NCBI RefSeq assembly: GCF_037081715.1
Contig: NZ_JAZDDH010000001.1
Coordinates: 1,178,001-1,242,000 of the forward strand
Length of the DNA stretch: 64,000 bases
Reading direction: 5' to 3'
Source: Halalkalicoccus sp. CG83
GTDB lineage: Archaea; Halobacteriota; Halobacteria; Halobacteriales; Halalkalicoccaceae
Under the pieces are notes generated by a model, which saw nothing but the letters and a program-made list of their open reading frames with translations, made no database searches and was not told the origin of the DNA. The position numbers and the translations under genes were made by a program. Positions 34,861 through 44,110 of this stretch are shown in pieces (the first letter of the stretch is position 1; every line of letters starts with the position of its first letter).

Positions 34861-35454
34861 TCAGAACCGTTCGGCGAAGAACTCGGCCACCGATGCGGCG
34901 ATCCGGTCGTGTTTACCGAGGAAGAAGTGGTCCGCGGGGAGTTCTTCGACGCGCGCGCCCGCCTCGCGCGCGGCCTCGACGACCGGCCTCCAGTCGACGG
35001 TCGTATCACGGGCACCGTAGAGCACCTGTAGCGGGGCGTCCAGTTCGGCGACGGCGCCCGCCGCATCCAGGTCCCCGTCGCCCAGGCTGGCGGCGGGGGC
35101 GAGCACGGACACGCCGCCGAGCGGCTCCTCGACGCTCGCTGCGGCCAGTAGCGCGACCGCCGCGCCGAAGCTGTAGCCGAAGACGCCCACCCGATCGTAG
35201 CGCTCCGCGGTCCAGCGGATCGCGTTGCGCGCGTCCTCGCGCTCGCCGTAGCCCTCGTCCCATTCCCCGTAGTCGAAGCGGAGACAGGCGACCCCCTCGT
35301 CCGAGAGCGCCCCGCCCACCGCCGTCAGCCTGGGGTCGCCGCGGTGGCCGCGCTGTCGGGGATGGGGCGGGCAGGCGACGACGATCGATTCGGCCTCCTC
35401 GCCGTCGAGGGTCGCGCGGACGTCCCTCGCCCCCGGTACCGCCACGTCGGTCAT
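34861..35454 (-). CDS. alpha/beta hydrolase
   Basis: A 197-residue small alpha/beta hydrolase with a predicted nucleophile Ser in VGVFGYSFGAAVALLAA (about 92-108), a late Asp in LYGARDTTVDW and His in LPADHFFLGKHDRI. It contains the VVACPPHPRQRGHRGDPRL start typical of KANL/dienelactone-hydrolase-like proteins in archaea. The substrate is unknown. It is divergent from pspA and could share control with it. Confidence 0.8.
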   Translation of the reverse strand: MTDVAVPGARDVRATLDGEEAESIVVACPPHPRQRGHRGDPRLTAVGGALSDEGVACLRFDYGEWDEGYGEREDARNAIRWTAERYDRVGVFGYSFGAAVALLAAASVEEPLGGVSVLAPAASLGDGDLDAAGAVAELDAPLQVLYGARDTTVDWRPVVEAAREAGARVEELPADHFFLGKHDRIAASVAEFFAERF

Positions 35455-35505: not shown

Positions 35506-36348
35506 ATGGGAGTACTCTCGCGGATGTCGTACGTCATCCGGTCGAAGATCAACGCAATGCTCAACCGGAGCGAGGATCCCCGGGAGACGCTCGACTACTC
35601 GTACGAGCAGATGCGCGATCGACTGCAGGACGTAAAACAGGGGATCGCGGACCTCACCACGCAGAAGAAGCGCCTCGAGATGCAGAAGCGCCGCCTCGAG
35701 GAGAACGTCGAGAAACACAACGAGCAGGCCCGCGAGGCGGTGCGCCAGGACCGTGACGACCTCGCGCGCCAGGCGCTCGAGAAGAAGAAGTCGAAGATGA
35801 GCCAGATCGAGCAGCTCGAGGACCAGATCGCGGACCTCCAGAACAAACAGGACAAGCTCGTCGACCAGAAGGACCAGCTCCAGAGCCGCATCGAGCAGTT
35901 CCGCACGAAGAAGGAGACGATGAAGGCCCAGTACGAGGCCAGCGAGGCGAGCGTCCGCGTCTCGGAGGCGATGACCGGCGCGGGCGACGAGATGGCCGAC
36001 GTCTCGCGCGCGATCGAGCGCGCCGAGGAGGAGACCGAGGAGATGGAGGCGCGCTCGGCCGCGATGGACGAGCTCCAGGACACCGGCGCGTTCGACGACG
36101 CGCTCTCGGACGAGGACAGCATCGACCGCGAGCTCGCCGCCGGGCGGACCGACAGCGAGGTCGAGGCCGAGCTCGACACGCTGAAGGGCGAGATGGGCAA
36201 GGAGACCACGAGCGCGAGCGTCGAGGAGGACGACGAAGAGGAGCTCGAAGCCGACGTCGAGGCCGCCGCGGAGGTCGACGTCGACGAGGAGCTCGAGGCC
36301 GGCGAGATCGACGAGGAACTCGAGGACATCCGCGACGAACAGTCGTAG
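35506..36348 (+). CDS. pspA: PspA/IM30 (ESCRT-III-like) family protein
   Basis: A 280-residue protein that is almost all helix. It starts MGVLSRMSYVIRSKINAMLN (amphipathic membrane-binding helix), then a long coiled coil (about 25-175) rich in Lys/Glu/Gln with LTTQKKRLEMQKRRLEE. The last 60 residues are a highly acidic tail (VEEDDEEELEADVEAAAEVDVDEE). Members assemble on stressed membranes and help keep them intact. It sits at the head of the island of five paralogous membrane proteins, 121 bp before the first. This position suggests membrane-stress partners (inference). Confidence 0.93.
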   Translation: MGVLSRMSYVIRSKINAMLNRSEDPRETLDYSYEQMRDRLQDVKQGIADLTTQKKRLEMQKRRLEENVEKHNEQAREAVRQDRDDLARQALEKKKSKMSQIEQLEDQIADLQNKQDKLVDQKDQLQSRIEQFRTKKETMKAQYEASEASVRVSEAMTGAGDEMADVSRAIERAEEETEEMEARSAAMDELQDTGAFDDALSDEDSIDRELAAGRTDSEVEAELDTLKGEMGKETTSASVEEDDEEELEADVEAAAEVDVDEELEAGEIDEELEDIRDEQS

Positions 36349-36469
36349 CGTGTAGCGTCCTTTCGAGAAATGCCGCCGAATCAACGTCCTCATAGATCCA
36401 CGGACGTGTGATCAGGGTGTACCGAACGCGTAGTGATCGACGGATCGCGGTGCGACTTCGATAGACAGA

Positions 36470-37498
36470 ATGAGCCAGTCGGACGAGCTAACACAACCGG
36501 CGGATACGATGCGCGAGCGCACCGGCGAGAGCGCGGTGAAGATGTGGTTTCTGATCACCGCGAACCGGTGGATCGTCACCGGCGTCCTCTCGCTTGCGAT
36601 GTTCGGGATCTTCGTCCTGTTGAACGTCGCCGGCCCGAGCAACGTCCAGCGCATCCTGGGACCGCAGTCGGTCGGAAACGTCTTCGGGTCGGTGATCATC
36701 GCCGTCGTCACCGGCGTCTCGCTCATCCTGGCCATCGCCCAGCTGGTGCTCTCCGAACAGATGGGGCCGCTCGGCGAGAAGCGCGACGAGATGCGCAACC
36801 AGATCGAGTTCCGTGACAACGTCGAGAAGCGGATCGACGACGACGTGAGTCCGGCCGCTCCCTCGGCGTTCCTTCGAACGCTCATCGGAGCGGTAAGTTC
36901 GCAGGCACGGACGCTCAGGGCGGTCGTCGAGGACAACGGCACCGACGCCCCCGCGCTCGTCGACTATGCGGACTCCCTCATCGATCATGGAGAGACGGTC
37001 GGCGAAGAGCTGGAGAACACGACCTTCGGCTCCTTCGAGGTGATCATGCCCGTCCTGAACTACAACTACTCGTGGAAGATCGTCGCCGGTCGACGGCTCC
37101 AGGCGGAGTACGCCGAGTCGATCACCGAGGAGGCCGCGGACGCGCTCGAGGGACTGATCGGCTCGCTGCGCTTTTTCGCCCCGGCGCGTGAGTACTTCAA
37201 GATGTTGTACTTCCAGTGGGAGATCAACAACATCGCGCGGGGCGTGCTGTACGCCTCGATCCCCTCGCTCGCGATCGCCGCCTACATGATCCTCGCGTTC
37301 GATCCGAATCAAGTCACGGGGTACACGCTCACGCTGCACGACCGATATCTCTTCGTCGGTCTCGTATACACCGTTGCGCTCCTACCGTTTACCGTCGTGC
37401 TGGCGTACATCCTCAGGATCGTCACCGTCACGAAACGGACGCTCGCGATCGGACCGTTCATCCTCCGGGAGACCCAGCGCGAGAGCGGGTTCGACTAA
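36470..37498 (+). CDS. four-helix membrane protein, paralogue A of five
   Basis: A 342-residue protein of a family I cannot name. TM1 is at about 34-54, TM2 72-94, then a mostly helical cytoplasmic stretch of about 160 residues, TM3 258-277 and TM4 293-316. Shared motifs are IAQLVLSEQMGPLGEKR (89-105), DDVSPAAPSAFLR (124-136), APAREYFKMLYFQWE (237-251) and RTLAIGPFILRE (323-334). It is closest to paralogues D and E. It follows pspA directly on the same strand and is the first member of the island. Function unknown; a small-ion channel or membrane-tension sensor are only speculation. Confidence 0.75.
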   Translation: MSQSDELTQPADTMRERTGESAVKMWFLITANRWIVTGVLSLAMFGIFVLLNVAGPSNVQRILGPQSVGNVFGSVIIAVVTGVSLILAIAQLVLSEQMGPLGEKRDEMRNQIEFRDNVEKRIDDDVSPAAPSAFLRTLIGAVSSQARTLRAVVEDNGTDAPALVDYADSLIDHGETVGEELENTTFGSFEVIMPVLNYNYSWKIVAGRRLQAEYAESITEEAADALEGLIGSLRFFAPAREYFKMLYFQWEINNIARGVLYASIPSLAIAAYMILAFDPNQVTGYTLTLHDRYLFVGLVYTVALLPFTVVLAYILRIVTVTKRTLAIGPFILRETQRESGFD

Positions 37499-37644
37499 AC
37501 GCTCGCGAGTACCTCCGGTCGTCTCGGCATCCGGGTCGGGGTCGCCCCGTCCCAGTGTATCCCTCCATCGGTCCGTTCACCACGCGATCGATCCTGCCGC
37601 CGAGCGGCGGGAGAGCGGACGAGCCGTCGCGAGGAACGGTCAGA

Positions 37645-38136
37645 TCAGCTCACGAGCCGATCGAAGAGGACGAGCACGAGCTGGTGGACTTCGACGAGAA
37701 CGACGACGCTGACGACGATGATCGCGACCTGTACCGGCGTCGAGAGCAGTCCGAGCGAGACGATGAGCGTCGTCGCACACGCCGGCGCGTGGTTCGTGTC
37801 CGTCGCGATCATTCCCCAGCTCGTCAGGACGATGGAGATGACGCCGCTCGCGGCCAGCCGGAGTCCGTCGGGCGAGAACGCACCCGGGGTCGTCGTGATC
37901 GTCACACCGTTCGCGAGGAGGAGGTAGGCCGCGAGTCCGACGACCCCACCGATGAGATGGCCGCCGACGATCCGATAGATCCGCGTGCGCTCGCCCCGGC
38001 GGTCGAACGCGAGGATGAACGCGGAGGGACCGAGGCTCGGGAAGACGAACGGCTGCCCGCTCGCCCAGGAGACGAGTCCGAGAACGGTGAAGAGAAACCC
38101 CGCATACAGGCTGGTTCCCACCCTCCGTCGTACCAT
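37645..38136 (-). CDS. HPP family membrane protein
   Basis: A 163-residue protein with about four membrane helices. It contains YAGFLFTVLGLVSWASGQPFVFPSLGPSAF and the family motif region ATDTNHAPACATTLIVSLGL. In most members this reads HPPAxATxL; here it is HAP. Some HPP proteins are linked to nitrite transport, but haloarchaeal copies near UspA genes have no proven role. A ctttacggg box (minus strand) about 25 bp upstream of ATG 38136 supports the start. It is divergent from the uspA gene. Confidence 0.8.
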   Translation of the reverse strand: MVRRRVGTSLYAGFLFTVLGLVSWASGQPFVFPSLGPSAFILAFDRRGERTRIYRIVGGHLIGGVVGLAAYLLLANGVTITTTPGAFSPDGLRLAASGVISIVLTSWGMIATDTNHAPACATTLIVSLGLLSTPVQVAIIVVSVVVLVEVHQLVLVLFDRLVS

Positions 38137-38234
38137 ACACGCTCTCGGCTCGTCCGCCCGTAAAGCCCTGTTCAATCCGGTCCGTCGGGACGAGCGGCCC
38201 AAACCTATTCCGACCTCGGGACGAACCAGCGGGC

Positions 38235-38657
38235 ATGGACCAGCGGATCCTCGTGCCGTTCGACGGATCGGACTCGTCGAAGGCCGCGCTCGACCGCGCC
38301 CTAGAGGAGAACCCCGACGCCGAGACCACGGTGCTCAACGCCCTTGAGTCGACGGAACTGGCCTACGGCAGCGTCCAGGGTAGCGCGGCCGAGAGCCTGA
38401 CCGACGCCCAGCGCGAGGAGGCCGAGGAGCTGTTCGAGCAGGCGGAGAAGCGGGCCGCCGCCTACGACGCGAGCGTGCGGACCGCGCTCGAGGTCGGCCC
38501 GCCGGGCGAAGTGATCGTCGAGTACGCGGAGGAACACGACATCGATCACATCATCATGGGCAGCCACGGCCGCTCGGGGCTCTCCCGCATCGTCGTCGGC
38601 AGCGTCGCGGAGACGGTCGTCCGGAACGCGCCGATCACGGTGACGATCGCCCGATAG
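38235..38657 (+). CDS. universal stress protein UspA family
   Basis: A 140-residue single UspA domain starting MDQRILVPFDGSDSSKAALD. The ATP-binding loop IIMGSHGRSGLSRIVVGSVAETVV is near the end. It lies divergent from the HPP gene and within the island of five paralogous membrane proteins, next to a perfect 24-bp palindrome downstream. It probably acts as an ATP-dependent stress signal protein of the cytoplasm. Confidence 0.9.
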   Translation: MDQRILVPFDGSDSSKAALDRALEENPDAETTVLNALESTELAYGSVQGSAAESLTDAQREEAEELFEQAEKRAAAYDASVRTALEVGPPGEVIVEYAEEHDIDHIIMGSHGRSGLSRIVVGSVAETVVRNAPITVTIAR

Positions 38658-38692
38658 ACCGTCGCCGTCGATCGCCGGCCGTCCGCGAGAAC

Positions 38693-38716
38693 CGACACGA
38701 ACGCGCGTTCGTGTCG
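38693..38716. repeat. perfect 24-bp palindrome downstream of uspA
   Basis: The arms CGACACGAACGC and its exact complement meet without a spacer. It lies 35 bp after the uspA stop, in a 254-bp gap between uspA and paralogue B, which is convergent with it. It could be a binding site or a cruciform; without a T-tract it is not an obvious terminator. Confidence 0.8.
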
Positions 38717-38911
38717 CCGGTTCGTCGGTGTCGGTACATCGCCGACTCGTCCGCGGCCCCCGAGGCGTCGGGGCCGATGGCCTTCAGCGCGATCGAACCG
38801 TACCGATCCCGTCGCGTCTCTACCGGCCGGAGCGCGGGCGTCGCCCGTCTCGGAACGTCGACGGACGGGTTAGTACGTGACTCGCCGGACTCCGAGGTCG
38901 CGTGCGTCGGC

Positions 38912-39919
38912 TCACTCGTCGAGATCCACGCGCGGGACGAACGGGCCGAAGTCGGCCGTGCGGCTCGTGATCGTCGCGATGCGAAGCGTGTAGACGAGGA
39001 GGACGACGAACGGGAGGAACACGAACGTCACCGCGGCACCGACGACGACCACGAGCGCAGGCTCTGCGATCGCCTCGATGATCCGGTCGTAGGTCATCAT
39101 GAAGACGCCGCCGCCGAGCAGCGTCGGAAACCCGACGTACAGCAGGAGCTTCGAGAGGTACGCGAGCTCGTGTTGCATGTACAACGTCTTGAACGTCTGG
39201 CGGGCGACGGCCAGGTGGCCGAGCAGCTCGATGAGGTCGTCGAGTGCGTCGTGTGCCTCCTCGGAGAGTTCGTCGCCGTGATCCGCACGGATCGTGCGGG
39301 CGGCGTAGAGATGTGCGCCGTTGAAGTGTCCGAGAACCGACGACAGCGCGTTGAACGTTCCGAAATCAGCGCCTTCGAGCGCATCGTTCACCAGCTCCCC
39401 CTCGCTCTCGACCGCATCGACGAGGTTCTCGGTCAGGGAAACGAGCCGCGTGTCCTCGTTCGGATCGACCGTGGATCGGAACGCCCGGGCGCGGTCGACG
39501 ACGGCGTCCACGATGACCTGAAGGAAGTCGGCCGGCGAGGCCGGACTGATACCGGAGCCGGTCACCGTCTCCACCTGCCGTCGGAACGAGACCATCCCCT
39601 CGAATCGATCCTGGAGGTCGTTCGGCCACCCCATCTCCTGGGAGAGCACGAGCTGGTTGATCGCGAGTACGATCGTGATGAACGGCAGGGTCCCGCCGAC
39701 GATCGCCCCCACGAGCGTCGTCGCGGTCGCGGGATCGGTAACGGGGATGTAGCCGGCGAATCCGATCCCCGTACAGACGGAGAAGACGACGACCGAGAGC
39801 AACGTCGCGAGCGCGAACCGGTTCCCGTCCAGCAGAATCCAACGCTTGATCGGTGATTCACGCAGGCGTTCGTGGACGAGGTCGCTCTGGGGGACCTCCT
39901 CGTCGATGGCTTCGTCCAT
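38912..39919 (-). CDS. four-helix membrane protein, paralogue B of five
   Basis: A 335-residue member of the island family with the same layout: TM1 about 34-55, TM2 about 68-92, long helical cytoplasmic part, then TM3 and TM4 near the C-terminus. Shared motifs are INQLVLSQEMG (87-97), GISPASPADFLQ (123-134), RQTFKTLYMQHEL and the end signature RIATITSRTADFGPFVP. It is more diverged than A, D and E, as is C. A T-rich box (revcomp cattttccc, about 39940-39950) is a possible promoter. Function unknown. Confidence 0.72.
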   Translation of the reverse strand: MDEAIDEEVPQSDLVHERLRESPIKRWILLDGNRFALATLLSVVVFSVCTGIGFAGYIPVTDPATATTLVGAIVGGTLPFITIVLAINQLVLSQEMGWPNDLQDRFEGMVSFRRQVETVTGSGISPASPADFLQVIVDAVVDRARAFRSTVDPNEDTRLVSLTENLVDAVESEGELVNDALEGADFGTFNALSSVLGHFNGAHLYAARTIRADHGDELSEEAHDALDDLIELLGHLAVARQTFKTLYMQHELAYLSKLLLYVGFPTLLGGGVFMMTYDRIIEAIAEPALVVVVGAAVTFVFLPFVVLLVYTLRIATITSRTADFGPFVPRVDLDE

Positions 39920-40015
39920 ACACCGTCTATCGAACGCGGCGGGAAAAATGAGGCTGCCGTGGTTCGGAGGTCCGCCCGCCGATCGGAGCGGTAGTCCCGC
40001 GCTCCGGCGAGCCGC

Positions 40016-41056
40016 TCACTCCTCGCTTTCGCCGTAGGAGACGTCGAACGGCCCCTCCTCGGGATCCTTCTGGGGGAGCATCGGGCCGATCGAGGCCGTC
40101 CTGTGGGCCACCGTCGCCGTCCGGAGGATGTAGGCGGCGAGCAGCGCCAGCGGTGAAACGACGACCGTGATGAGCGCGACGGCGACGAACGGCAACAGGT
40201 CGGGAGCGAGCGAGGAGCCACTGATGTCGGCGTACACCAAGCCGAGCACTATCGCCGAGAGCACCGAGGGCACCCCGCAGTAGAGCGTCTGTCGGGAGAA
40301 CTGGGTGAGTTCGCGCTGGAGATACGTCGTCTTGAACTGTTCCCGGGCGACGTCGAACAGCCGGAGCGCGTCGAGGAGGCGCTCGAAGGCCTCGCTCGTC
40401 TCCTCGGAGAACGAGTCCTCGTATCGGCCGTAGAGATGCCTGCCGGCGTAGATCTGCCAGGCGTCGTTGTAGTTGATCGCGGCCGAAACCGCGTTGAACG
40501 TGCCGAACTCCGTCTCCTTGAGGGTCTCGTGGATCCGTTGGGTACTGTCGTCGATGCCGGCGACGTACTGCGAGACGGCGTCCCGACAGTCCGCGTCGCG
40601 GTTATCGGAGACGCTCTCCTCGAGGTCGTCCGCGCGTTCGTGGATCGTCACGACGATCAGATCGATCAGTCTCGACGGCGAGGCGGGGCTGGCCGGCACC
40701 TTCGCGAGCGACTCTACGTCCTCACGAAAGTCCATCACGCCGTCCAGCTGGTCGCGGGCCTCGCCCGCCGAGCTGAACTCCTGCGAGAGGATCATCTGGT
40801 TGATCGAGACCACCAGCGTGACGAGCGAGAACGTCCCGGCGATCATCCCGCTGGCGACGCGCGTGACCGAGTTGGCGTTCTGGAACGCGATGACGTCGAA
40901 CGCGTTCAGCCCGAGCAGGAGAACGGACACGGCCGCCGTGAGCAGGGCCGCGACGAGCAGCCGGTTGCCGTCGACGATCACCCATTCGAAGACACCGGTC
41001 GACGACTTCTGACCCATGTCGGCGCCGTACGACTCCAGCTCCTCGTCATCGGACAT
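40016..41056 (-). CDS. four-helix membrane protein, paralogue C of five
   Basis: A 346-residue member of the same family. The N-terminus is acidic (MSDDEELESYGAD). It has VVSINQMILSQEFSSAGEAR (TM2 end), VPASPASPSRLIDLI, the FGTFNAVSAAINYNDAWQIY segment, AREQFKTTYLQREL and RTATVAHRTASIGPMLPQ. A box tcttttttcc on the minus strand about 26 bp upstream of ATG 41056 supports the start; a longer frame is less likely. It lies in line with B (97 bp apart) and is divergent from D, with 251 bp between. Confidence 0.72.
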   Translation of the reverse strand: MSDDEELESYGADMGQKSSTGVFEWVIVDGNRLLVAALLTAAVSVLLLGLNAFDVIAFQNANSVTRVASGMIAGTFSLVTLVVSINQMILSQEFSSAGEARDQLDGVMDFREDVESLAKVPASPASPSRLIDLIVVTIHERADDLEESVSDNRDADCRDAVSQYVAGIDDSTQRIHETLKETEFGTFNAVSAAINYNDAWQIYAGRHLYGRYEDSFSEETSEAFERLLDALRLFDVAREQFKTTYLQRELTQFSRQTLYCGVPSVLSAIVLGLVYADISGSSLAPDLLPFVAVALITVVVSPLALLAAYILRTATVAHRTASIGPMLPQKDPEEGPFDVSYGESEE

Positions 41057-41307
41057 AAAAGGCGCTACAGCGGGCAGGCGGAAAAAAGACGGCGTTGCGC
41101 GTTCGTCCGACACGGCGTTCGGAAGCGCAACCCCTACCTCGATCCAGCGGCTGCCGTCTACATGGATAGCGTTCAGCTCCGACCGTGGAACCGCGTGCCG
41201 GCTCGCGGCTTCGCGGCGGGTCGACGCCACGGTAGAGGGATCGCTTCGCCGGCGGGTCGTCCGCATCACGCTCGTCCCCACCGCCTCATCTCGACGCCGG
41301 TGGGACG

Positions 41308-42345
41308 GTGATCGAACCGGATCCGACCGGCTCGACGCTCCAACGCCTCCGGGCGTTCGATCTCGGGCAGTGGACGCTCATGCGGCTCAACCGCTGGGTA
41401 CTCACGGGTGTGATCCTCGTCGTCGTCTTCGCGGGCCTCGTCGGCGGAGCCCGGCTCGGCCTCGATCCGTTCCGGGCGCTGGTCGCGAGCCACGACACGA
41501 TGTGGTGGATCTTCTCGAACTTCATCGGCGCCATCATCACGGGCGTCACGTTGGTCGTGACGCTCAACCAGCTCGTGCTCTCCCAGGAGCTGGGTGCGGT
41601 CGGCGAACAACGAAGCCGGATGAGCGCGTCGATGGACTTCCGACAGACCGTCGAGGACACCATCGACCTCGACGTCAGCCCGCCCGAGCCTGCCTCGTTC
41701 ATGAAGATGCTCGTCGAACGGTCCCGCGCGCAAGCCGAGGAGCTGCGGAACGTCATGGAGGACGAGCGCGACGAGGAGCTCAAGGAGAAGGTCGACGACT
41801 ACGTCGACGACCTCACCGACAACGCCGACACCGTCAGCGAGAAGCTCGACGGCGCGCAGTTCGGGACGTTCGACGTGATCTGGGCGATCTTCCGGTTCAA
41901 CTACTCCTGGAAGATCTTCAGCGCCCGCCAGATAAGAAACCAGCACAGGGACTCCTTCTCCGAGGAGGCCGACCAGAAGTTCGAGGACATGATCGACGTC
42001 CTGAAGCTGTTCGGCCCGGCGCGCGAGCACTTCAAGACGCTCTACTTCCAGTGGGAGCTCGTCAACCTCTCTCGCGCGCTGCTGTACATCTCGGTGCCCG
42101 CGCTGATCATCGTGGGGCTGGTGCTGATGTACCTCGGGCCGAACGCGATGCCCGGGACGTTCCTCGGGATCGATCACCTCGTCTGGGTGGCCGCGGCGGC
42201 CTACACGGTCGGCGTCGCCCCGTTCGTCGTCCTGCTCGCCTACATCCTGCGGATCGGCACGGTCGCCAAACGGACGCTCGCGATGGGGCCGTTCATCCTC
42301 CGGGAGAACGAGCGCGAGGACGACATCGAGTGGTCCGAGACCTGA
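41308..42345 (+). CDS. four-helix membrane protein, paralogue D of five
   Basis: A 345-residue member starting at GTG 41308. TM1 is near MRLNRWVLTGVILVVVFAGL, and TM2 is in GAIITGVTLVVTLNQLVLSQ. The following LGAVGEQRSRM and DVSPPEPASFMK motifs, the GTFDVIWAIFRFNYSWKI segment, AREHFKTLYFQWEL and RTLAMGPFILRENER are nearly identical to E. D and E are a recent tandem pair with A as the next closest relative. Most sequence variation is at the N-terminus and in the TM3-TM4 loop. Confidence 0.75.
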   Translation: MIEPDPTGSTLQRLRAFDLGQWTLMRLNRWVLTGVILVVVFAGLVGGARLGLDPFRALVASHDTMWWIFSNFIGAIITGVTLVVTLNQLVLSQELGAVGEQRSRMSASMDFRQTVEDTIDLDVSPPEPASFMKMLVERSRAQAEELRNVMEDERDEELKEKVDDYVDDLTDNADTVSEKLDGAQFGTFDVIWAIFRFNYSWKIFSARQIRNQHRDSFSEEADQKFEDMIDVLKLFGPAREHFKTLYFQWELVNLSRALLYISVPALIIVGLVLMYLGPNAMPGTFLGIDHLVWVAAAAYTVGVAPFVVLLAYILRIGTVAKRTLAMGPFILRENEREDDIEWSET

Positions 42346-42475
42346 TCGACCGGATCAGTTGACCGGATCGTAGCCGGTGAGCGCGCCGGCGAGCGACGGG
42401 AGGCGCGCTCGATCCCTCGCATCGGGCGGGATCGCGTATCCGCACCCTTTTCCGGGCCTCCTCCCTCCCTCAGTC

Positions 42476-43504
42476 ATGAGTAGCAGCCCCGACGATACGA
42501 TGAGCAAGCGAGCGGAGGGGAGCGGCCTTCGGCTGTGGGTGTTGATGCGGATGAACCGGTACGCCCTCGCGGGGCTGATCATGCTGTGGATGTTCGTCGC
42601 GATCGTGTTGCTCAGCTTCGTCGGGATGAGCCCGTTTCAGGTGCTCGTCCTCCAGGACCCCGACGCCATCCAGACGCTCTTCAGTTCGATGGTCGGGCCG
42701 ATCATCACGGGCGTGACGCTGGTCGCGACGATCGGCCAGCTGGTGCTCTCCCAGGAGCTGGGCGCGGTCGGCGAACAGCGCGAACGGATGGACGATGCCA
42801 TGGATTTCCGCCATGACCTCGAGTCCCGAACCGACATGGGGGTCAGCCCTCCCGAGCCGGCGGCGTTCTTGCGCGAGCTCGTCGCGGGGGTCGAGGACTA
42901 CGCCGAACGGCTTCGTGACGAGATGGAGGACGAACGCGACGAGGAGCTCAAAGAGCGGGTCAACGAGTACGTCGACGCCCTCGACGACCACGCGGAGACC
43001 GTCCGAGAGGAGATCGAGAACACCCAGTTCGGGACGTTCGACGTGATCTGGACCGCACTCGACTTCAACTACTCCTGGAAGATCTTCCAGGCGCGACAGA
43101 TCCGCGACGATCACGCCGACTCGCTGTCCGAGGAGGCCGACCAGGCGCTCGACGACATGATAGTGATGCTGAAGTTCTTCGGACCGGCGCGCGAGCACTT
43201 CAAGACGCTCTACTTCCAGTGGGAGCTGATCAACCTCTCGCGTTCGCTGTTGTACGCCGGCCCGCCGGCGCTCGTGGTCGTCGTCGGAATGCTCATCTAC
43301 CTCGATCCCACCGCGATCGTCGGCTCGATCCTCGGCGTCCAGAACCTCGTGTGGCTGGTGAGCGGGGCGTTCGTGCTCGCCCTCGCCCCGTTCGTGTTGC
43401 TGATCAGTTACGTCCTGCGGATCGCGACGGTCGCCCAGCGCACGCTCGCGATGGGGCCGTTCATCCTCCGGGAGTCGAGCCGGGACGCGGACAGCGACGT
43501 CTGA
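42476..43504 (+). CDS. four-helix membrane protein, paralogue E of five
   Basis: A 342-residue member starting at ATG 42476, 130 bp after D. Shared motifs are TIGQLVLSQELGAVGEQR, GVSPPEPAAFLRELV, MEDERDEELKERVNEYVD (also in D), FGTFDVIWTALDFNYSWKIF, AREHFKTLYFQWELINLSR and RTLAMGPFILRESSR. The conserved, charged cytoplasmic half probably carries the function. The next gene encodes a lipoprotein, not a family member. Confidence 0.75.
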   Translation: MSSSPDDTMSKRAEGSGLRLWVLMRMNRYALAGLIMLWMFVAIVLLSFVGMSPFQVLVLQDPDAIQTLFSSMVGPIITGVTLVATIGQLVLSQELGAVGEQRERMDDAMDFRHDLESRTDMGVSPPEPAAFLRELVAGVEDYAERLRDEMEDERDEELKERVNEYVDALDDHAETVREEIENTQFGTFDVIWTALDFNYSWKIFQARQIRDDHADSLSEEADQALDDMIVMLKFFGPAREHFKTLYFQWELINLSRSLLYAGPPALVVVVGMLIYLDPTAIVGSILGVQNLVWLVSGAFVLALAPFVLLISYVLRIATVAQRTLAMGPFILRESSRDADSDV

Positions 43505-43606: not shown

Positions 43607-44110
43607 ATGACCGAGAACGTCCACCCGACCCGCCGCCGGTTTCTCGCGCTGACCGGAGCGGGGGCCACGACCGCGCTCGTGGGCTGTACCGGCAGCAGCG
43701 GCAGCGGGAGCAGCCCGGGGTACCGGAACGGCGAGGTCGACGTCCCGAGCGACGCGACCCCACGCAACGCCGAGGAGACGGCGGCCGCCCAGGCCGCCGC
43801 GGGGACCCAGGCGAACCAGAACGTCTCGGCGATGGACGACCTCGAGATCGCTGACCACGCCTTCGCCTACGAGGACGGCTACACCGGTTCGACCGTGCAA
43901 GGCGTGATCGAGAACACCGGAAACGATCGGATGGACACCGTCGAGGTCCGCGTGCGCGTCTACAACAGCGACGACCAGCAACTCGGCCGCTACGTCGCCA
44001 GCACCGGCGACCTCGGCGGTGGCTCGTCGTGGAGCTTCCAGGTGATCCTCCTCGAGTCACCCGCCGACATCGCGAGCTACGACGTCGCGGTGCTGGGCCT
44101 TCCCGCCTGA
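43607..44110 (+). CDS. FxLYD-domain lipoprotein (Tat-exported)
   Basis: A 167-residue protein. The signal has twin Arg (PTRRRFLALTGAG, residues 8-20) and a lipobox ALVGC with Cys27, so it is probably exported by Tat and lipid-anchored. A Ser/Gly/Ala/Gln linker follows. The C-terminal part (about 75-165) is an FxLYD domain with DLEIADHAFAYEDG, GVIENTGNDRMDTVEVRVRVYN and LGGGSSWSFQV. Its role outside the cell is unknown. Confidence 0.82.
   Translation: MTENVHPTRRRFLALTGAGATTALVGCTGSSGSGSSPGYRNGEVDVPSDATPRNAEETAAAQAAAGTQANQNVSAMDDLEIADHAFAYEDGYTGSTVQGVIENTGNDRMDTVEVRVRVYNSDDQQLGRYVASTGDLGGGSSWSFQVILLESPADIASYDVAVLGLPA

Follow-up and report, generated by a model that had tools for sequence, protein, structure and literature searches.

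As reviewed in two surveys of Psp systems, the membrane partners of bacterial PspA are encoded with or near pspA and are lineage-specific (PMC9239133, PMC11237479). The 2022 survey describes archaeal Psp networks as largely unknown and annotates neighbourhood genes via their protein domains (PMC9239133), an approach that we infer would overlook any family lacking a domain model; the family reported here is not described in the available parts of either survey. Like PspB/PspC, LiaI-LiaF-TM and YdjG/YdjH, the five proteins considered here (A to E) are membrane proteins encoded near pspA. They differ from these bacterial partners in placing four transmembrane (TM) helices around a cytosolic bundle, in their length (335-346 amino acids) and in occurring in 1-12 copies, and comparison with Pfam and NCBIfam at E-values up to 1 gave no PspB, PspC, LiaI or LiaF-TM match.

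Bestrophin and MotA have a layout of two plus two TM helices. The bestrophin (PF01062) and bestrophin-like (PF14023) families resemble A-E in the succession of two TM helices, cytosolic helices and two further TM helices, yet A-E have no Pfam match to either at E-values up to 1, and hhalign probabilities against seven bacterial bestrophins were 0.2-0.5%; by sequence profile both families were rejected as relatives. Fold comparison with bestrophin-2 gave a Foldseek TMq of 0.20 and an E-value of 1.0, VIA-align scored bestrophin at Z 7.2 over a partial chain with generic helical overlap, and a profile search of the order for bestrophin or bestrophin-like genes returned no match, its positive controls being silent too. 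MotA/TolQ/ExbB proteins share long TM helices that extend into the cytosol; they gave no Pfam match and an hhalign probability of 0.2% at a depth at which the positive control was itself weak (3%), and ExbB and PomA appeared as weak Foldseek listings for the model of E. DUF2254 (PF10011), whose likeness to A-E is a superficial one in a TM segment bearing a conserved Q, was set aside with no Pfam match and an hhalign probability of 2%.

Profile comparison with Pfam, NCBIfam, PHROGs and PADLOC assigned A-E to no credible family, a PDB sequence-profile search yielded nothing below an E-value of 0.16, and Foldseek searches gave best E-values of 0.17 in PDB and 0.059 in a viral library, none of them meaningful. 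The top rows of the VIA fold comparison were TTYH2, at 12-15 Å rmsd, and generic four-helix bundles. The original prediction had recognized no described family with these motifs; the profile, sequence and fold searches agree, with no match of all five proteins to a characterized family, and these libraries hold no description of the A-E family, which has neither a name nor an assigned function. The nearest named relative, from Halalkalicoccus paucihalophilus, is 74% identical to A, and plasmid-borne members, where annotated, are nearly all named 'hypothetical protein', with one row labelled cytochrome oxidase.

The five genes lie within C1:1178001-1242000 of the 3.64 Mb genome of the haloarchaeon Halalkalicoccus sp. 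CG83, the whole 64-kb stretch of DNA analysed here and referred to as the window. Their island has a G+C content of ~65-67%, a slight dip compared with 66-71% in the rest of the window, and no tRNA genes were found in the 64 kb. At its head stands a PspA/IM30 homologue (35506-36348, plus strand; PF04012, 1.2e-28), the sole match in the genome, followed by member A (36470-37498, plus), an HPP family membrane protein (37645-38202, minus; PF04982, 8.5e-13; its start likely lies inside the listed ORF), the universal stress protein UspA (38235-38657, plus; PF00582, 3.4e-36) and members B (38912-39919, minus), C (40016-41056, minus, with its ATG at 41056), D (41308-42345, plus) and E (42476-43504, plus), all five members being assigned from ORF and alignment. 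The arrangement had been predicted from the letters, and ORFs for all five members together with the three Pfam matches bear it out. HPP genes are recurrent in pspA islands and adjoin pspA in those of Natrialbaceae. An alpha/beta hydrolase gene (34861-35454, minus; PF02129, 9.4e-06), which adjoins pspA and is divergent from it, is possibly part of one stress unit with pspA. After E, at 43607-44110, lies a gene for an FxLYD-domain protein with a Tat-type signal, which recurs in 13 of 79 loci.

Members A-E align over their full length with 41 invariant columns. Pairwise identity is 57% for D/E, 43% for A/E, 39% for A/D and 31-36% for all other pairs, matching the proposed division into a close set (A, D, E) and two diverged members (B, C). 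The profile of C matches that of the wider family with an hhalign probability of 100% (E 2.9e-96), and A-E are therefore true homologues. The motifs said to be shared do exist, with drift, A reading AQLVLSEQ and FKMLYFQWEI and C reading NQMILSQE and FKTTYLQREL.

In a quick FastTree phylogeny with local support only, in which long branches leave the deepest joins unsure, A, B, C and D/E were placed in separate clades, and for every one of them orthologues lie close to pspA in Natrialbaceae. Orthologues of A occur in the Natrialbaceae pspA islands L063, L074 and L119 and those of B in loci L050, L087 and L119, whilst Halopiger djelfimassiliensis carries D/E, B, A, C and PspA within ~6 kb and the Natronorubrum and Natrarchaeobius islands hold PspA, HPP, C, D/E and a further subfamily, N. 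Because these separate, old subfamilies recur in the pspA islands of other families, the island is not mainly the product of local expansion, and the earlier suggestion that the family expanded in place more than once was not upheld; thus the multi-member island is either old or has been exchanged as a unit. D and E are the only pair resembling a within-subfamily duplication, and even so their nearest relatives are separate, those of D including a Halalkalicoccus plasmid copy (L146). The notion that C needs an obligate hetero-partner was weakened by 4 of 23 genomes in which C adjoins pspA with no other listed member nearby.

The AlphaFold model of E (pLDDT 84.5, pTM 0.79) predicts TM1 at residues ~28-48, TM2 within a helix spanning 62-95, cytosolic helices at 98-233, a long helix at 235-275 that runs into TM3, and a helix at 290-325 containing TM4 (~304-325). 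The layout of C is the same at low confidence (pLDDT 65.6), and the predicted arrangement of two plus two TM helices around a charged helical middle is thus modelled well for E and weakly for C. In the C-terminal tail K+R exceeds D+E despite the acidic proteome, and the loops between TM helices contain little K+R, a distribution that fits a cytosolic location of both ends and the bundle; both termini are accordingly predicted to lie in the cytosol with the central bundle. Mean column entropy across 167 sequences was 0.90 in the C-tail (313-332), 1.01 in the juxtamembrane helix (231-256) and 1.27 in TM2, with the bundle well above these at 2.05. The strongest conservation therefore falls on the TM2 polar face, the juxtamembrane helix and the C-tail, which together form the mouth of the membrane domain on its cytosolic side. 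At the end of TM2 (residues 78-94 of E; 42707-42757, plus), T78, T81, T85, Q88 and S92 form a stripe along one face, accompanied by E94, and the stripe is polar in 92-100% of the 167 sequences and in all subfamilies. The juxtamembrane helix leading into TM3 (43166-43243, plus) carries the conserved residues R239, K243, Y246, E250, S255 and R256.

The family is real, is nearly universal in haloarchaea and has a conserved tie to pspA. Among near-complete genomes from the order, 96 of 106 carry it, representing 38 of 42 genera, and in a wider sample of the phylum nearly all matches fell within this order. The genome of strain CG83 encodes 12 full-length copies and one fragment, compared with one pspA; the fragment (L020:1456-1761; G000:C1:842245-842424) retains only the last TM helix and the C-tail and is apparently a decayed copy. 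PspA was present in 101 of the 106 genomes, with both genes in 92, pspA alone in nine, the family alone in four and neither in one. Given so widespread a PspA and such frequent joint presence, presence and absence alone say little.

In at least 58 of the 92 genomes with both genes (25 of 36 genera, eight of nine families), no more than 6 kb separates pspA from a family member, a lower bound for which some coordinates were added from other searches and one genome (G114) was counted as unlinked. Chance would link ~1.3 genomes, a naive expectation that gives no clean probability because the genomes share ancestry. Conservation of the link in other haloarchaea, on which the original prediction had staked its proposal, thus extends far beyond chance. 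Both genes share a strand with pspA upstream in at least 48 genomes and lie on opposite strands in at least 10, with no case among the matches listed of a family gene upstream of pspA on the same strand. In Haladaptatus, Halorientalis, Halarchaeum, Halegenticoccus, Haloprofundus, Halorarius, Halogeometricum and Halolamina, pspA and a member are 18-102 nt apart (18-54 nt in Haladaptatus and Halarchaeum), a spacing suggestive of co-transcription. Neighbour clustering showed pspA near the family more often than any other gene (51 of 79 loci, 25 genera), and by subfamily the pspA-linked fractions were 12/12 for N, 15/17 for C, 18/25 for H33, 11/14 for D/E and 8/10 for Had. Subfamily C was found in 23 of the 106 genomes, and in 19 of these its distance from pspA is at most 5.3 kb. 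The Haloarcula species sampled carry a single member, 1-6 kb from pspA. A Haloarcula locus (L055:9118-11034) has a CitMHS/TrkA_C transporter gene between the family gene and pspA.

On these grounds the family is a strong candidate for the membrane partner that is still missing from the archaeal envelope-stress response. We favour, at a little short of an even chance, the reading that the pspA-linked subfamilies provide PspA with a membrane partner or anchor within an archaeal Psp system, as lineage-specific, membrane-embedded counterparts of bacterial PspB/PspC, LiaI or YdjGH that would contact PspA directly. The cytosolic bundle and juxtamembrane surface would dock PspA, which might be kept ready there or have its polymer nucleated at membrane damage, with the member relaying membrane or osmotic state to it. 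Members may oligomerize and sense stress, and the several subfamilies of one island could serve as differently triggered anchors or as mixed subunits. The conserved linkage and orientation, the large cytosolic helical domain in the model of E and the K+R-rich C-tail speak for such a partnership. Against it, conservation is highest in TM2 and at the membrane-cytosol interface rather than in the bundle, where docking of PspA would be expected; a single pspA faces 12 copies of the family, four genomes have only the family and nine only pspA, and one subfamily, P4177, is never linked to pspA. If true, a membrane partner of this kind would be a testable component of envelope stress in most haloarchaea and would bear on the way archaea position ESCRT-III-like proteins on their membranes.

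The conservation pattern would suit an oligomeric channel for ions or osmolytes, a reading we consider unlikely overall but the most serious rival. The Thr/Thr/Thr/Gln/Ser stripe of TM2 would line the pore and a conserved charged ring at its cytosolic end would gate it, with PspA, the DUF4177 protein and Usp as regulators and paralogues differing in gating. Retention of the stripe in every subfamily, the concentration of conservation in TM2, the juxtamembrane helix and the C-tail, the pairing of copies with different soluble partners and the bestrophin- and MotA-like layout are all consistent with conduction. However, neither the profile comparison with bestrophins nor the PDB fold search gave a confident match, a polar TM face would equally fit helix packing or subunit contacts, and the polar moment of TM2 reached only p ~0.02 as one of four helices tested.

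Other genomic partners widen the picture beyond PspA. All 15 members of the P4177 subfamily lie directly 3' of a DUF4177 gene, mostly with a 4-nt overlap or a 6-nt gap, and 0 of 11 were pspA-linked. This uncharacterized two-gene unit, often plasmid-borne, is seen at L144:5774-6996, L145:5681-6987 and L147:7756-8996, with further DUF4177-paired loci at L006, L069, L092 and L099-L125 and an annotated case on Haloterrigena turkmenica pHTUR02. Two other Halalkalicoccus islands (L021, L051) likewise have a DUF4177 gene next to a D/E member, an arrangement absent from the 64-kb window. In the CG83 genome, two diverged members lie directly downstream of genes for DUF389 membrane proteins (L014:1489-3931, L019:1486-3776). 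Pairing with DUF4177 and DUF389 as well as pspA indicates that the membrane part probably has an activity of its own, which it exerts with one partner or another. The proposal of a membrane-stress complex with PspA therefore stands as regards the conserved pspA link but is too narrow, since 12 copies against one pspA and subfamilies coupled to DUF4177 or DUF389 mean that a PspA complex cannot describe the whole family. One broader model, which we hold to be speculative and improbable, is a four-helix pore or sensor family with exchangeable coupled partners (PspA, DUF4177 and DUF389 proteins), of which up to five subfamilies would assemble around a single PspA into a mixed membrane-stress complex. 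Equally doubtful is that the family is a generic scaffold or lipid-binding module of the membrane, one that would hold varied soluble proteins there without sensing or conducting, perhaps as a lipid-domain organizer or a receptor for polar lipid headgroups. Varying partners, dispersal of copies on plasmids and charged residues conserved at the membrane-cytosol boundary would suit a scaffold, but the near-invariant polar and charged residues within and at the ends of TM2 and TM3 exceed the needs of a plain anchor.

Slightly less probable again is that the pspA link reflects inherited gene order only and that the family works independently of PspA. Unrelated genes do recur in the neighbourhood, almost always with pspA, which sits in an old syntenic block with the alpha/beta hydrolase, DUF1611 and others; the hydrolase is kept in ~35-36 of 79 loci, usually <200 nt from pspA and as close to it as the family, so inherited order may account for some of the linkage, and the four genomes with the family alone are in keeping with independence. 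Order alone is harder to reconcile with the short same-strand gaps in several families, the strongly constrained orientation, the rank of pspA as commonest neighbour and the separate link of the diverged C subfamily (19/23).

A mobile or viral origin was rejected, with no phage record or viral contig found and all plasmid copies residing in haloarchaea. A member carried by a nanohaloarchaeon (L067:7980-9023) branches among Halorussus copies and was probably acquired from a haloarchaeon.
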